From positions 1 through 38,034 of the forward strand of contig CANQBI010000016.1 in assembly GCA_947589435.1 (NCBI GenBank): DNA of 38,034 nt, written 5' to 3'. Source of the DNA: an uncultured Bacilli bacterium (GTDB lineage: Bacteria > Bacillota_I > Bacilli_A > RF39 > UBA660). Positions 2 to 19,092 of the stretch are shown in pieces. The translations under genes were made by a program, and so were the position numbers. The number at the start of each line of letters is the position of its first letter. The stretch's first letter is position 1. The notes under the pieces are model-generated. The model ran no database searches. It worked only from the letters and a program-made list of their open reading frames with translations, and was not told the origin of the DNA.

Positions 2-1726
2 CAAGGAACTTCATCTAGTAAAGATACTTCATCAAATGAAGATGAAACCAACGATAACGAAATGAACCATAATCAAATTGATAGTCAAAGTAATAATCAA
101 GGAGATTCATCTAGTGAAGATTCTTCTTTAAATGAAGAAGAAAACAATGATAATGAAATGAATAATAACCAAAGTGATAGTCAAAGCAATAATTCAGGAA
201 CAGCATCTAGTGAAGATAATTCTTCAGATGCAGATGAAACCGATGATAATGAAATGAACAATAATCAAAGTGATAGCCAAAGCAGTAATCAAGGAACTTC
301 ATCTAGTAAAGATTCTTCATCAAATGAAGATGAAACCGATGACAATGAAATGAATAATAACCAAAGTGATAGTCAAAGCAATAATTCAGGAACAGCATCT
401 AGTGAAGATAATTCTTCAGATGCAGATGAAACCGATGATAATGAAATGAACAATAATCAAAGTGATAGCCAAAGCAGTAATCAAGGAACTTCATCTAGTA
501 AAGATTCTTCATCAAATGAAGATGAAACCAACAATAATGAAATGGACAGTATCCAAGGTAATAGTCAAGGAACTTCATCTAATAAAAATACTTCATCAAA
601 TAAAGATGAGAATAATAATCAAACGAATAATAATCAAGATAATCAAGAGACTTCATTTAATGAAGGTGCTCCTTCAAATGAAGAAGAAAACAACGATAAC
701 GAAATGGACGGTATTCAAGGTAATAGTCAAGGAACTTCATCTAATGTAGATACTTCTTCAAATGAAAACGAGAATAATAATCAAATGAATAATAACCAAG
801 ATGGTCAAGAAACATTATCTAATGAAGAAGAAAATGAAAGTGAAAAACAAGAAAAAGATGTGGGACATGATACACATAGTATGTGGAAAGATGCTGTAAA
901 AAGAAGAAAAGAAAAGAATAATCAAGAAGAGAAAAAATGGGAACAAAAAGATAAAGATAGTGATAAAATAAGTGAAAGAGATATATTTGAGCAAAATTTA
1001 GAGGAGAAAAGAAAAGAGTTAGAAAAATTAAAAGACATATTATCTAGGCAAGCAGCAGCGGGATCTGGAGCAGGTCAAAGTGATTTAAAAGTACATGATA
1101 TTGGTAAATCACGACCATTATTGGATTGGAGATATGTATTAAAAGAAGCAATTAATTATGATGTTGATTGGTCTTATAAAAATGCCTATATAGAAGATGG
1201 AGTTGTATGTGCAACCTTAGAAGAACAACCAATGCCAGAAACAGAAATAGTTCTAGATACTAGTGGTTCAATAGATATACTTTTACTTAAGAATTTTTTA
1301 CGAGAATGTAAAAATATTTTGCAAAATTCTAAAATAAAGGTCGGATGTTTTGACGATGAGTTTTATGGATTCCAAGAAATAAGAAGGCAAGAAGACATCG
1401 ATAATATGGATTTTGTTGGTGGTGGAGGAACAAACTTTGAGGTTGCTGTTCAGGCTTTCACTAGAAGAGTCGAAAATAAGATTATTTTTACTGATGGTGA
1501 GGCCGGTATGCCTGAAACACCTCTAGATGCCATATGGATTGTTTTTGGAGGTCTTGAAATTGATCCTCCCGGAGGAAAAGTAATTCAAATTAGTGATGAA
1601 CAATTAGATAGATTATATGGCTATCCGGAACCTTCAGAAGAAAGAATGGATGATGACTATTTTTCTAAAATTTTTAAAAAAGCTGATGATTATATGAAAG
1701 GCCAAACGAGAAAAAGAATATTTTAA
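2..1726 (+). CDS. VWA-like (DUF2201-type) protein with N/S/D/E-rich tandem-repeat region; 5' end truncated by window edge
   Basis: Frame is open from base 2 through the listed ATG at 62, so the gene begins upstream. The C-terminal part (ETEIVLDTSGSID...VGGGGTNFEVAV...IIFTDGEAG...IWIVFGG) is VWA/MIDAS-like. Confidence 0.75.
   Translation, partial: QGTSSSKDTSSNEDETNDNEMNHNQIDSQSNNQGDSSSEDSSLNEEENNDNEMNNNQSDSQSNNSGTASSEDNSSDADETDDNEMNNNQSDSQSSNQGTSSSKDSSSNEDETDDNEMNNNQSDSQSNNSGTASSEDNSSDADETDDNEMNNNQSDSQSSNQGTSSSKDSSSNEDETNNNEMDSIQGNSQGTSSNKNTSSNKDENNNQTNNNQDNQETSFNEGAPSNEEENNDNEMDGIQGNSQGTSSNVDTSSNENENNNQMNNNQDGQETLSNEEENESEKQEKDVGHDTHSMWKDAVKRRKEKNNQEEKKWEQKDKDSDKISERDIFEQNLEEKRKELEKLKDILSRQAAAGSGAGQSDLKVHDIGKSRPLLDWRYVLKEAINYDVDWSYKNAYIEDGVVCATLEEQPMPETEIVLDTSGSIDILLLKNFLRECKNILQNSKIKVGCFDDEFYGFQEIRRQEDIDNMDFVGGGGTNFEVAVQAFTRRVENKIIFTDGEAGMPETPLDAIWIVFGGLEIDPPGGKVIQISDEQLDRLYGYPEPSEERMDDDYFSKIFKKADDYMKGQTRKRIF
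62..541 (+). repeat. Five 96-bp (32-aa) coding repeats, including a near-perfect 192-bp higher-order duplication
   Basis: 32-aa units start at 62, 158, 254, 350 and 446. Unit 158-253 is identical in nucleotides to 350-445. Unit 254-349 matches 446-541 except at its 3' end. Confidence 0.92.
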
Positions 1727-9989: not shown

Positions 9990-10469
9990 TTACTTAGATT
10001 TGACACTTTTTTCTGTATTAAAACATTCATTTAAGTATTCAATGATATCTTCAATTCTTATGCCTTCCCCGATTAGGATATCGACATTATGCATAATACT
10101 AGAATAATAAGTAGCAATTATTTTTAAAGTATGAATACTTATTATTCTATTCTTTAAACCATTTTTAGGACAAGTACTTACTTTATATTTGATATCTTCA
10201 TCTATTATTTTTTCAATTTTTAAAAAACAAGCCCCATAATAAATAATATAAGTATTATCATTAACTTCCCCATTATTCTTTAAATATTCATCACATATTG
10301 TAGTTAATATTTCAATACATTTATAATCCATACCCATAGTTTTATCTATGGTAGCAAGTTCCTTTTCTTTATCCATCGCATTATAAACAAAAACATTTCT
10401 TAGCCATCTTTCACATTCCGGATTTAAGAAAAATTCATAATATTTAAGCATTCCTTCATTCTTTTTCAT
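9990..10469 (-). CDS. Unknown protein, paralog of the 11418, 11849 and 12410 genes
   Basis: YYEFFLNPECERWLRNVFVYNAMDKEKELATIDKTMGMDY aligns with LYEYFLSMEYTEWLQRLFIYPLDYQSKEIAWINEDMGLDY. Confidence 0.6.
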   Translation of the reverse strand: MKKNEGMLKYYEFFLNPECERWLRNVFVYNAMDKEKELATIDKTMGMDYKCIEILTTICDEYLKNNGEVNDNTYIIYYGACFLKIEKIIDEDIKYKVSTCPKNGLKNRIISIHTLKIIATYYSSIMHNVDILIGEGIRIEDIIEYLNECFNTEKSVKSK

Positions 10470-10489
10470 TATCTTACCAACTTTCTTTT

Positions 10490-11350
10490 TTACTTGTTAT
10501 CTATTAATTTCTTATTTAAATTCTCTAGTTTTTTTATAGATTTATCATTTTCTAATATTTTCATTTGTCTAATTGCGGAATCATTAAGTTTTACTAATCT
10601 TTCCAATTGTGGTAACCCGGCATTAATAAGTTCAGCATTAGTATTCTCTAAATTGCATAATATAAGTAAATGTTTTAAATCAGTATAATCTCGGATATTA
10701 CCTTCTAAATTAGGATTTTTGTCTCTCCATTCTTTAGCAGTCATACCGAATAATGCGACATTTAGAACATCAGCCTCTTCAGCATATACATATTGTTTTT
10801 GCTTTTCCGTTAATTTAGGAATAATATTTTCTTTAATTGAATCTGTATGAAGATGATAATTAGATTTTGCAAGCATTCTACTAGCAGTCCAATCAACTTT
10901 ATATTGATAAGCTTCATTTCTTTTTAATCTTTCAAATTCTTGAATAACATATAATTTAAATTCAGGAGAAAGCCAACTTGCAAATTCCAATGCTATATCA
11001 CTACAAGCATAAGTTCCTCCATTATTACCTGATTTAGAAATAATTCCAATCGCATTTGTTTCTTTAATCCATTTTTGGGGAGACAAATAAAAGCTATTTT
11101 TACCAGCTAAAGATTCAAAGGTCGTAAATTCGATACCTTTGAAATTTTCGTTATTTAATTTTTCCCATAATCCTAAATAAGCAATAACGTCTCTATTTCT
11201 CATCCAAGTTTGAATTGGAATTTTTGGCTCTTCTGGATTAGCATATCTTGCTAAATCAGTAAGAGAAATATATTCTTTATTTCCTATTCTAATTACACTA
11301 ATTTTATTATTATTTACGTTAATTTCTGATTTTAGTATTTCGGTATTCAT
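10490..11350 (-). CDS. KilA-N domain DNA-binding protein
   Basis: EYISLTDLARYANPEEPKIPIQTWMRNRDVIAYLGLWE..., then GGTYACSDIALEFASWLSPEFKLYVIQEFERLK, typical of KilA-N proteins. Confidence 0.85.
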   Translation of the reverse strand: MNTEILKSEINVNNNKISVIRIGNKEYISLTDLARYANPEEPKIPIQTWMRNRDVIAYLGLWEKLNNENFKGIEFTTFESLAGKNSFYLSPQKWIKETNAIGIISKSGNNGGTYACSDIALEFASWLSPEFKLYVIQEFERLKRNEAYQYKVDWTASRMLAKSNYHLHTDSIKENIIPKLTEKQKQYVYAEEADVLNVALFGMTAKEWRDKNPNLEGNIRDYTDLKHLLILCNLENTNAELINAGLPQLERLVKLNDSAIRQMKILENDKSIKKLENLNKKLIDNK

Positions 11351-11417
11351 TTATAAATCTCCTTTTAATTATCTTTTTAAAGGTCGTAAATTCGACACCT
11401 TTGAAATAATATCTTAA

Positions 11418-11846
11418 TTATCTTACCATTTTAATTTCTGTACTATTTATTTTATCACTAGCATATTCTACCAATCTACTTAAACTAATTGTCTTTTTCG
11501 TAATAATATCAGCATTGCAACTAGTTGATACTAAATATGATATCTTATCATCATCTTTTGGATATTCAATTACTTCTAAATTTATAAAAGAACTACCCTC
11601 TAAAATATTATAAGTGCTTCTTAGAGTATCTTCATAACAGTGAACATCATCACTCTTATTTTCGTTTAAAAAATCTTTTATTATTTTCACAAATACTTTT
11701 AAATTTATATAATCTAGTCCCATATCTTCATTTATCCAAGCAATTTCTTTACTTTGGTAATCTAAAGGATATATAAATAATCTTTGTAACCATTCTGTAT
11801 ATTCCATACTTAAAAAGTATTCATATAGTTTATTATATTCAATCAT
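11418..11846 (-). CDS. Unknown protein, EYFLSxEYxxWLxxLF paralog
   Basis: 142-aa ORF packed tightly with neighbours and sharing the family N-terminal motif. Confidence 0.6.
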   Translation of the reverse strand: MIEYNKLYEYFLSMEYTEWLQRLFIYPLDYQSKEIAWINEDMGLDYINLKVFVKIIKDFLNENKSDDVHCYEDTLRSTYNILEGSSFINLEVIEYPKDDDKISYLVSTSCNADIITKKTISLSRLVEYASDKINSTEIKMVR

Positions 11847-11848
11847 TT

Positions 11849-12406
11849 TTATCTTCCTTTATTGTATTTTTCTCTTGTCTCTTTATTAACCACATAAGCA
11901 TAAGCAACTTGTAAATCATTAACAATTACTTCTCTATCTATTCCTTTATTTTCAAGTTCCTTAATCGTTTTAATAATCGCATTTAAAGTTTCATCTTCCT
12001 CATTTTTCTTGTTTAAAGAGACATATTCTCTTAATTTATTTATATCAATGAGAGGAAATCTTACTAGAGTTTTATCTTCTAGTTTTGTTACAAGATAACT
12101 ACTAATGACCGGATTATAACTTCTTAAATCATCATTAGTTAATTTTGTTACTTCTATATACATATCATTATAAGTAAAATTATAATAATAACAAAAGGGA
12201 TAATTTTGATAATGATAGTAATTATTTAGATAGTAATCTTTTTCTTCTGGAGAGGCTAAATCACTTTTTAAATACTCTTCAACATACTTAAATAAAAGTT
12301 TAAATTTATTCATATCATATTCAACTTGTAAAACTACATTAATTTCCCTAGAAAACAATCTATTTAACCAATTACTATATTCTTCACTTAAAAATTCTTC
12401 TTGCAT
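11849..12406 (-). CDS. Unknown protein, MQEEFLSEEYxNWLNxLF family
   Basis: Close paralog of the adjacent 12410-12937 gene over its whole length, with shared C-terminus NDLQ-AYAY-VNK-TREK-NKGR. Confidence 0.65.
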   Translation of the reverse strand: MQEEFLSEEYSNWLNRLFSREINVVLQVEYDMNKFKLLFKYVEEYLKSDLASPEEKDYYLNNYYHYQNYPFCYYYNFTYNDMYIEVTKLTNDDLRSYNPVISSYLVTKLEDKTLVRFPLIDINKLREYVSLNKKNEEDETLNAIIKTIKELENKGIDREVIVNDLQVAYAYVVNKETREKYNKGR

Positions 12407-12409
12407 ATT

Positions 12410-12937
12410 TTATCTTCCTTTATTGTGTTTTTCTCTCGTATCTTTATTTACTTCATAAGCATAAGCAATTTGTAAATCATTAATAAGTACTTCTCTTTTT
12501 ATTCCTTCATTTTCCAGTTTATTAACCGTTTGAATAATGGTATATAAAGCTTTATCTTCCTCTTTTTTGCTATTAATTAAGACATATTCAATTACTTTAT
12601 TTAAATCAATAAAAGGGACATTTAATTTAGTTTTATCTTCGACTTTTAAAATATGATAACCAGTAATTTCTAATTTGTGGTGCCTTAAATCAGCACCTTG
12701 TAAAATCTTTATTTCAATATCCTTGTTATTATAAGTTAAATCATAAGTTAAATAACGCGTGTTTAAATAATAATCCTTAACATCACTAGGGGCAAATTCA
12801 CTATTTAAATATTCGGCAATATATTTAAATAAGATATTAAATTTTTGTCTTTCATCTTTACTAAAGACATCATTAGCGTTACTAAACAAATTATTTAACC
12901 AATTAGTATATTCTTCACTTAAAAATTCTTCTTGCAT
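12410..12937 (-). CDS. Unknown protein, MQEEFLSEEYxNWLNxLF family
   Basis: Tandem paralog of 11849-12406. Confidence 0.65.
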   Translation of the reverse strand: MQEEFLSEEYTNWLNNLFSNANDVFSKDERQKFNILFKYIAEYLNSEFAPSDVKDYYLNTRYLTYDLTYNNKDIEIKILQGADLRHHKLEITGYHILKVEDKTKLNVPFIDLNKVIEYVLINSKKEEDKALYTIIQTVNKLENEGIKREVLINDLQIAYAYEVNKDTREKHNKGR

Positions 12938-16149: not shown

Positions 16150-17628
16150 TTAAGCCTCTAAAATTATAAATGGATTATCTTCTGTTCCTTCACCACTCAA
16201 TAATATATTAGGGGTTAGATAGAAGACTGGGCGAACCGCACGCGTATAGTCCACACGATTGTAGTACAAGGTGCCATCTGTATGCACATCCCACGCATGG
16301 TAAGCACTACTGTAGAGGCCATACCTAGTCATGGTCCATTCGTATAGACTATTATATGTTGAACTACTACTTGTCCCATGAGTAATATGTAACCAACTAT
16401 CTGTATTTGGATTGCTAATTGATGGATTAGCTTTAGCATAGTCCCATGAATTATAATAATCACTTGCATACATTAATCCTATTTGATAATTTTTTGATTT
16501 TTTTGATGTTGCTTCTGTTCCTCCACTACTTGTATTATCTCCTATCCACCAGTATGGATTATCTATTAATTTCTTCCATGTTTCATCTATTGTATTTAAG
16601 AATGTTACATTTAAGTATGTCTTTTGAATAATTGCATTATCCCATGTTGAACTATCAAGATTTCCACTTCCCCACTGTACTACTTTTATACCATCATCTT
16701 CTTTTAATGGTGTTGCTCTTATTATCTTTAATTGTCCCGCTTCTAATTCTAAACTTGCATTTACATTACTATCTGTTATCCCAATTATTCTATACATATA
16801 TGTATCTGGTGTTTCTAGACATTCATCTGTATCATCTGTTCCAAAACATATATAATTATTTGTTACTTGATCATAAGTTCCTACGTATCTATACATTCCA
16901 TCTACTGCTGTGGTATGTTCTCCTCCTCCGGCAAATACTTCGCCTCCTGTTTGTTGTAATGCCTCTAATGGTGGTAAACCTTGAAGTTCTTTACATACAA
17001 AACTATCAACACTTACCTTTACTTTCATTTCTTGATTAGCTAAGTATGATTGGTCTCTATCGGCGTTATTTAATTTTAAATAGGCTTTTATATATGTAGG
17101 AGTTTGTGTTTCTCCATCCAATTTAAATTTTATAGTAGTGCCCTCTGTAGATATATTTTTTAAATCTATTTCTTGTTCTTCTTCTCCATATATTAGTCCT
17201 AAGGTAAAATCTCCTTTTTGAATATCTTCTAATATATCAGTTGTAAACTCTAATTTAATTGTGGCACTACAAGTTTGAGTTTCGGATAATATTCCATTTA
17301 TATCTATTCTTCCTAAATCTTTTATTCCTTCTTCTTTACTATCTGCATAATTCTTATCTTGATTATCAGTAGCATAATAATCTCCTAAGTTTTTATATGC
17401 CATATCTTTAGCATCTACAGATATATGAAAGTTCTCTACTTTACCTGATAAGGTTATACCTCCTGCTTCACCAGTAGATATTTCTATTTTAGTAGTAGTA
17501 TCTTCTCCATTTACTTGTAATGAAAAGAAAGCATAAGATACTCCAATTACTGCAAGTATTAATGAAAGTACTATTGCCGTAGTGGCTATTATTATATTTC
17601 TTTTATTATTTCTTATATTATCATTCAT
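16150..17628 (-). CDS. TasA/SipW-signal-like surface protein with variable C-terminal domain
   Basis: N-terminal TM 'IIIATTAIVLSLILAVIGVSYAFFSL'. C-terminal YMYRIIG...LKIIRATP...IGLMYASDYYNS...EWTMTRYG...VRPVFYLTPNILLSGEGTEDNPFII shared with the adjacent paralog. Confidence 0.65.
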   Translation of the reverse strand: MNDNIRNNKRNIIIATTAIVLSLILAVIGVSYAFFSLQVNGEDTTTKIEISTGEAGGITLSGKVENFHISVDAKDMAYKNLGDYYATDNQDKNYADSKEEGIKDLGRIDINGILSETQTCSATIKLEFTTDILEDIQKGDFTLGLIYGEEEQEIDLKNISTEGTTIKFKLDGETQTPTYIKAYLKLNNADRDQSYLANQEMKVKVSVDSFVCKELQGLPPLEALQQTGGEVFAGGGEHTTAVDGMYRYVGTYDQVTNNYICFGTDDTDECLETPDTYMYRIIGITDSNVNASLELEAGQLKIIRATPLKEDDGIKVVQWGSGNLDSSTWDNAIIQKTYLNVTFLNTIDETWKKLIDNPYWWIGDNTSSGGTEATSKKSKNYQIGLMYASDYYNSWDYAKANPSISNPNTDSWLHITHGTSSSSTYNSLYEWTMTRYGLYSSAYHAWDVHTDGTLYYNRVDYTRAVRPVFYLTPNILLSGEGTEDNPFIILEA

Positions 17629-17631
17629 ATA

Positions 17632-19092
17632 CTATTCCTCACTTATTAAAAATGGATTAGATTCAGTTCCTTCTCCAGAAAGTCTTATATCTGGTGTTAA
17701 ATACAAGACTGGGCGAACTGAAAACTGGTCATTCACCCAACCAACGTTCAAATGTCCACCTGAATACACAGACCACACTTCGTAATGGTTGTTGCTGGAG
17801 CCATACCTAGACATTGTCCATTCATATGTATTACCACATGATATGTTTGTTTCGGTTCTTCCATGACATATATTTAACCAACTGCTTGTATTAGAACCAT
17901 ATATATATGAATTGTAATAATCACTTGCATACATTAGTCCTATTTTATTTTCGTTTGATATTAAATTTGCCGACTCTTTTTTTGGCGGATTCGCACTATT
18001 TCCAGTTATATCTCCTATGTACCATTTTGGATTACTTATTAAATCACTCCATTGGTGTGTTCCTAATGTTCCTGTGATTGTTTCTAAGAATGTGTCATTT
18101 AAATAAATTTTTACTTCTACATTTGTATCATTCCAATTATAATTTACATCATAGTCATTATACCAGACTTGATTTGTATTTGATGGGGTAGCTTTGATTA
18201 TCTTTAATTGATCTGGCACTAAACCTAGTTCAGTATTTACATTATCTGATGTTACCCCGATTATTCGATACATGTAGGTATCTGGTTCACTTGTACATGT
18301 ATTTGTATCTGTTGTTCCAAAACATATATAGTTATTCTTTATTTCTTCATATGTTCCTACATATCTTATTAACTCATCATTTTCCACTACTGTTTTCAAA
18401 TGGTCAGAATCTGTTGTTTTTTGTAATGTTGTAAGGACACTCTTTCTTACTTCACATTTAAAATCTTCCACATTAATAGTTACATTTAAGGTTTTACCAG
18501 CTAAACCACTTTGATCTGTATTTTGATTAGTAAATTTAAGATAAGCTTTTATTGGCTCTATTTTACTTAAATTAAATTTAAAACTAGATAATGTCATACT
18601 TTTAGATAAATCATATTCAGTCTCTGTATTTCCTTGGATTATTACAAGTACTAAATCATTTTCGTGAAGTTCACTTTGCATATTACCACTTAAATCTACA
18701 TTAACACTAGCGGTACATACATAATCATCTACTAATTCTCCCTCTAATTCTAAATTACCAATAATTTGAGTACCATCTTCTTTAGTAGTTTCATAATTCT
18801 TACTATCATCAGTTGTTCCATAATAATTATTATTTACTCTATTAAAAGCCATATCAGCAACTTCTAAATGTATTTTATAACTTTCTATACCTCCAGTTAA
18901 TTTAATATTATTAGCTTTACCTGTTTTAATAGTTATTTCGGTATCTTCTGAATTATTTATAGTACCCATTGTAAAATAAGCATAAGTAGTTCCCACTACG
19001 ATAACTACTAATATTAAAACTATTATCATACTTCCTATTAATATTTTCTTTTTATTCTTCTTTTCATTATTTAAAGTATTATCCTCTATCAT
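17632..19092 (-). CDS. TasA/SipW-signal-like surface protein with variable C-terminal domain (paralog of 16150-17628)
   Basis: N-terminal TM 'ILIGSMIIVLILVVIVVGTTYAYFTM'. Same C-terminal domain, EWTMSRYG...VRPVLYLTPDIRLSGEGTESNPFLI. RBS AAGGAGTGTAGGATG. Confidence 0.65.
   Translation of the reverse strand: MIEDNTLNNEKKNKKKILIGSMIIVLILVVIVVGTTYAYFTMGTINNSEDTEITIKTGKANNIKLTGGIESYKIHLEVADMAFNRVNNNYYGTTDDSKNYETTKEDGTQIIGNLELEGELVDDYVCTASVNVDLSGNMQSELHENDLVLVIIQGNTETEYDLSKSMTLSSFKFNLSKIEPIKAYLKFTNQNTDQSGLAGKTLNVTINVEDFKCEVRKSVLTTLQKTTDSDHLKTVVENDELIRYVGTYEEIKNNYICFGTTDTNTCTSEPDTYMYRIIGVTSDNVNTELGLVPDQLKIIKATPSNTNQVWYNDYDVNYNWNDTNVEVKIYLNDTFLETITGTLGTHQWSDLISNPKWYIGDITGNSANPPKKESANLISNENKIGLMYASDYYNSYIYGSNTSSWLNICHGRTETNISCGNTYEWTMSRYGSSNNHYEVWSVYSGGHLNVGWVNDQFSVRPVLYLTPDIRLSGEGTESNPFLISEE

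Follow-up and report, generated by a model that had tools for sequence, protein, structure and literature searches.

Two hypervariable gene segments of an uncultured Bacilli bacterium point to a diversity-generating retroelement that appears to be served by thirteen scattered template-RNA genes

The stretch of DNA that we analyzed, hereafter the window, is the 38,034-nucleotide contig CANQBI010000016.1 (positions 1 to 38,034; contig C16 in our numbering) of assembly GCA_947589435.1, a 1.44-Mb MAG of an uncultured Bacilli bacterium that comprises 62 contigs and is about 93% complete and 1.1% contaminated. Two neighboring minus-strand genes in this window encode paralogous membrane-anchored proteins, each of which carries near its C-terminus a 96-bp segment of unusual composition. 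An earlier note, made from the sequence alone, had described these segments (16225-16320 and 17707-17802) as equal in length, free of gaps and GC-rich, and had interpreted them as targets of a diversity-generating retroelement (DGR). We confirmed the description. The segments are 54.2% and 49.0% GC, exactly as the note had counted by hand, whereas the window as a whole is 27.8% GC, and only 0.04% and 0.56% of all 96-nt windows are as GC-rich. The codons TGG, GTG and TTG and the block GTTCGCCCAGTC are indeed fixed between the two segments. One correction is required, because comparison with the templates described below showed that the homologous block runs from AGGTATGG to GTTCGCC; it therefore starts six bases further upstream and ends before CAGTC, which is specific to the variable repeats (VRs). 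The features are listed in Table 1.

Table 1. Coordinates of features in the window and at other loci retrieved during the analysis (loci outside the window carry the prefix L; G, genome of the genus; C, contig of the assembly).
Sequence	Coordinates	Strand	Feature	Basis
Window	16150..17628	-	Target gene 1 (492 aa): N-terminal membrane anchor, C-terminal hypervariable domain	ORF; sub-threshold Pfam DUF6273 at residues 324-472
Window	17632..19092	-	Target gene 2 (486 aa), paralogue of target gene 1	ORF; aligned with 31 other copies of the domain
Window	16230..16326	-	Variable repeat VR1 (97 nt, template-homologous part)	Best template C6:31136: 13 of 31 template adenines and 8 of 65 other bases changed, no gap
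Window	17712..17808	-	Variable repeat VR2 (97 nt), diverged, no good template in the assembly	Best template C6:29657: 14 A and 19 other mismatches
Window	16225..16239	-	Fixed 3' block GCGGTTCGCCCAGTC of VR1, IMH-like	Only GCGGTTCGCC is shared with templates
Window	17707..17718	-	Fixed 3' block GTTCGCCCAGTC of VR2, IMH-like	
Window	16153..16836	-	C-terminal domain carrying VR1, possibly C-type-lectin-like	AlphaFold2 model; nearest PDB folds not significant
Window	2-1726		Protein with acidic repeat region	
Window	9990-12937		Row of small ORFs	Names from reading the sequence
L001 (contig C17)	1261-2232		Second reverse transcriptase, retron St85-like	NCBIfam retron_St85, E=9e-64
L002	2739-3050		103-aa ORF flanking avd-RT	No match in Pfam, NCBIfam or PHROGs
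L002	996-1283		95-aa ORF flanking avd-RT	No match in Pfam, NCBIfam or PHROGs
L035; L064	9047-9995; 2882-3775		PDDEXK_2 (Rpn-like) or DUF3800 genes next to template-RNA units	
L041	1287-1982; 2937-3626		PDDEXK_2 (Rpn-like) or DUF3800 genes next to template-RNA units	
L053	1528-2217		PDDEXK_2 (Rpn-like) or DUF3800 genes next to template-RNA units	
L040; L050	2203-4173; 2424-4301		Target ORFs of 657 and 626 aa, each carrying the variable domain twice	

To determine whether the segments belong to a larger family, we searched the genome. VR1 DNA matched 46 places at E<=1, and the 11-mer ACTGGGCGAAC occurred 22 times, whereas its reversed control occurred 0 times. A peptide-level scan of the retrieved loci gave 33 in-frame copies of the target domain, and one more copy, at C18:19699 (contig:position), was read by hand, which gives 34 in all on some 20 contigs. 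Two ORFs (C3, C20) carry the domain twice. Most of the target proteins begin with a hydrophobic segment and end with the variable domain, which matches Pfam DUF6273 weakly (10 of 32 copies). AlphaFold2 gave one good model of five for this domain (pLDDT 84.2). The nearest solved folds are C-type lectins (Legionella Lcl C-terminal domain and mannose-receptor CRD-4), although the Foldseek E values exceeded 0.4 and the TM score was about 0.2, and the predicted fold is therefore only suggested. A search of plasmids gave no match to the target protein.

The earlier note was correct that neither a reverse transcriptase (RT) nor a template lies in the window, and we therefore looked for both in the rest of the genome. 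On contig C13 lie, in one direction, a template repeat (TR; C13:38835), a 103-aa ORF, a 128-aa Avd-like ORF that overlaps the RT start, a 374-aa RT and a 95-aa ORF. The RT contains the motif LPIGNMTSQ, that is, IGxxxSQ instead of QGxxxSP, together with YMDD, and matches phrog_1423 RT at 9e-74. Its best PDB match, at E=3.6e-22, is chain 8ub7_A, which is deposited simply as ‘Reverse transcriptase’ and is probably the BPP-1 DGR complex; the next match is at 3.3e-9. The Avd-like ORF matches phrog_3206 ‘Avd protein of DGR’ (4e-15), NCBIfam DivGenRetAVD (2e-8) and Pfam bAvd (2e-6), although the last two matches are below their curated cut-offs. Of the two small ORFs, the 103-aa ORF lies between the TR and avd, and its opening sequence recurs in G001, another genome of the genus. 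A second RT, on C17, is retron-like, has small ORFs on both sides and is possibly a defence retron; we rejected it as the DGR enzyme. Thus, the genome has one DGR RT. The relatives of this RT are MAGs of uncultured Bacilli, the named ones from ‘Lapin’ (rabbit) and goat rectum samples, and in phages the RT was at most about 31% identical.

Unexpectedly, the TR beside the RT is one of 13, which could not have been seen from the window alone. All 13 copies of this ~280-nt unit share a TATAAT-like block, the leader AGGTAATCTTGA or a sequence close to it, a core of 85-109 nt that is rich in AAY codons, and about 140 nt of conserved 3' sequence that ends in a hairpin and T-run. Searches with the 3' part alone and with a covariance model also gave exactly 13 copies. 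They lie on eight contigs: C4, C6 (four), C7 (two), C11, C13 (two), C18, C28 and C45. Several stand next to a target gene (C6, C7, C11, C18, C28), and others stand next to PDDEXK_2 or DUF3800 genes, which may have helped to spread them. The block GCGGTTCGCC is shared between VRs and TRs, after which the VRs continue with CAGTCTTCTATCT and the TRs continue with 0-3 varying bases and AGCCTTCTATAAC, a difference that resembles that between IMH and IMH*. The same 0-3 varying bases, directly after GTTCGCC, break the reading frame, so the units are non-coding there. The RNAalifold consensus of the 13 units has 40 pairs, nine of them with changes on both sides, located in the terminator hairpin, the hairpin nested in it and two smaller stems. 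No Rfam family matches the TR RNA, one sub-threshold ALIL hit in L041 being at chance level, and no TR match was found in phages. This anatomy suggests that the units are transcribed separately.

To examine the relation between templates and targets, we aligned each VR codon-wise to every TR with a score blind to base identity, which replaced an initial score that favored adenine. In the 14 pairs with identity of at least 72%, template adenines differed at 208/418 sites, C at 27/242, G at 35/377 and T at 31/292 (Fisher p=2e-54), that is, 50% of adenines but only about 10% of other bases were changed. The replacements were A>G 83, A>T 69 and A>C 56, whereas a VR adenine opposite another template base occurred only 29 times. 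Such direction is the DGR signature and is not expected from drift or recombination. Nine different TRs are the best partner of at least one VR, and in all 14 pairs the TR lies on another contig than the VR. The choice of TR matters: VR C44:7936 fits TR C11:30180 with 3 non-A mismatches and no gap, but fits the RT-adjacent TR with 9 and 2 codon gaps; VR C8:9030 fits TR C45:9241 with 4 and 0 against 12 and 5; and VR C11:30587 fits TR C6:28004 with 5 and 1 against 15 and 4. Action in trans is therefore the simplest reading of the sequences. However, only five VRs reach the level of >=75% of mismatches at template adenines that Roux et al. report for nearly all DGRs, and several domain copies match no template.

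The two VRs of the window are weaker cases and do not reach this level. In VR1, 62% of mismatches to its best TR fall at template adenines, which is an enrichment (p=1.6e-3 with the initial score that favored adenine), whereas VR2 fits no template well (42%), and templates from sister MAGs did not improve the fit. Either their template is missing from the assembly or it has changed since, and the second possibility is plausible because TR cores do turn over. In the one syntenic comparison that was possible for the window gene, the neighboring gene was 95% identical to that of a sister MAG, the N-terminal half of the target 85% and its C-terminal domain about 75%. VR1 (75%) was no more diverged than the rest of its domain (76%), so this comparison did not show hypervariability of the VR itself, and recombination of whole domains also reshapes these genes. 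By contrast, the RT is 100% identical in amino acids to that of a sister MAG, although the target gene at the window locus is only 75% identical in DNA.

To place this arrangement in its phylogenetic context, we examined 38 genomes of the genus. RT and TR RNA occurred together in 16 genomes, RT alone in 3 (fragments or distant) and TR RNA alone in 2 (Fisher p=1e-5). The copy number of the TR RNA ranged from 1 to 13: 13 in G000, 12 in G055, 11 in G014, 7 in G052, 6 in G008, 6 in G022, 4 in G001 and 4 in G051. G014 gave no RT match at E<=1e-20 although its genome is 94% complete, so that its RT is lost, missing from the assembly or very diverged. G001 has copies in tandem directly upstream of the RT operon, and in the sister MAG G041 (=G052) the copy next to the RT has lost its core while other copies are intact. 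In a sample of 242 genomes of the order, members of other genera that have the RNA carry one copy, rarely two, although distant copies may be under-counted because the model was built from this genus. Multiplication is therefore probably derived within this genus. At the same places in sister MAGs, some TR cores are nearly or entirely unchanged (C7:21230, 0 of 85; C6:4060, 1 of 100; C45:9241, 2 of 94), whereas others have been replaced inside nearly unchanged flanks. Beside the RT, the downstream flank is 99.2% identical over 1,471 bp and the 3' RNA 96%, but the core has 26 mismatches and 3 gaps in 106 aligned bases; at C6:31136, 11 of 97 positions differ.

Taken together, these results support the interpretation in the earlier note, and we consider it very likely that the two segments are variable repeats of a DGR that works in trans and from many templates, although its activity is inferred from sequence, without expression data, reads or experiment. 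In this model, the single RT-Avd machinery encoded on C13 reverse-transcribes any of the 13 stand-alone template RNAs, each of which carries its own TR core and its own copy of the ~140-nt 3' structured element. This element is presumably the counterpart of the BPP-1 spacer, which recruits the RT complex and primes cDNA synthesis (PMC12875486). Adenine-mutated cDNA would then replace the matching VR in one of about 34 domain copies. Because the targets are mostly membrane-anchored proteins with a variable C-terminal domain, the likely outcome is a large, combinatorially diversified set of surface binding proteins.

Of the alternatives, the one that survives best, although we regard it as unlikely, is that the TR units are a mobile non-coding element multiplying for its own sake, with VR diversification as a by-product; as to mechanism, it is compatible with the model above. 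The variable copy number in the genus and the proximity of several copies to PDDEXK_2 or DUF3800 genes are in line with this view. However, similarity between copies ends with the RNA itself, no shared flanking ends were seen in the alignment, and several copies stay at the same place in sister species. An ordinary single-template DGR, in which only the TR beside the RT is used and the other 12 units are decaying copies or repeats, is very unlikely. The RT-adjacent TR does have the standard position, and outside the genus the RNA is usually single-copy, but most VRs with a good template fit a remote TR better, in length as well as in non-A bases, the 3' RNA of all copies keeps its pairing through compensatory changes, several remote cores are conserved between species, and the RT-adjacent copy in G041 has lost its core. 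The least likely alternative is a fast-evolving binding loop in recombining paralogues without retroelement activity, from which the template-like units are derived; although whole C-terminal domains are exchanged at the window locus and the paralogous targets are related and numerous, recombination does not predict directional substitutions with A>G, A>T and A>C in similar numbers, an RT-Avd locus is present, and the TR units are non-coding with their own structured RNA.

Several features of this system have precedents. In the BPP-1 DGR of a Bordetella phage (bRT, Avd, TR, and VR in mtd), the RT and Avd are homologous to those found here, the TR-to-VR changes are adenine-directed, a GC-rich fixed block lies at the 3' end of the VR, and structured RNA lies directly 3' of the TR; however, BPP-1 has one TR, between avd and RT, and one VR nearby, whereas here 13 stand-alone units with their own terminator lie on eight contigs and the targets are in trans. 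The Treponema denticola DGR also has bacterial surface proteins as targets and several remote VRs (PMC4891356), but its several TRs were seen between strains and in people's metagenomes, not as a gene family within one genome. Thiohalocapsa PB-PSB1 has many targets in one genome and good evidence for trans action by a remote TR and RT (PMC10907252), but its nine DGR loci fall into four classes, each with its own RT and TR. The computational survey of Yan et al. 2019 (PMC6642488) lists DGRs with more than one TR, for example Stenotrophomonas SKA14 with two TRs and six VRs; the TRs are few, one example with 6 TRs is called atypical with few A-to-N changes, and no dispersed, structured template genes are described in the parts of that work consulted. 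Dispersed paralogous targets are known for cyanobacterial DGRs (PMC7517822), where we found no dispersal of templates in the parts consulted, and DGRs with several VRs and remote targets are also known from PMC3521204. In the open-access literature searched, to the exclusion of subscription papers and preprints, we found no description of a family of dispersed, structured template-RNA genes served by one RT.

DGRs are normally described as one template and one or a few targets in a cassette of a few kilobases, and metagenome surveys search beside the RT, so they would miss nearly all of this arrangement; Roux et al. state that their approach cannot see remote targets. A single RT served by 13 independent template RNAs would show that the template RNA is a portable, self-sufficient substrate, and the 13 natural variants, plus those of sister species, give a covariation data set that would make testable which part of the RNA recruits the RT and primes synthesis. 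It would also give a small-genome gut bacterium a repertoire of dozens of diversifying surface proteins, with several independent programmes of which residues vary.

The replacement of TR cores inside conserved surroundings raises a further, tentative possibility, namely a two-level diversification system in which the cores of the template-RNA genes are themselves exchanged and rewritten between copies, by homing of cDNA into other template genes or by recombination, so that the cell evolves not only the variable proteins but also the programme that says which residues may vary. The differences between TRs do not distinguish homing from recombination. At codon positions 1-2, 60 of 74 differences between TRs involve an adenine, but adenine makes up about half of those bases and about 75% is expected from composition alone; consequently, we do not claim that the templates are mutagenized by the DGR itself.

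Elsewhere in the window, we noted a protein with a long acidic Asn/Ser/Gln-rich repeat region before a C-terminal domain, and three or four small, related-looking ORFs (142-185 aa) in a row with an antirepressor-like ORF, downstream of a HerA-like ATPase ORF.
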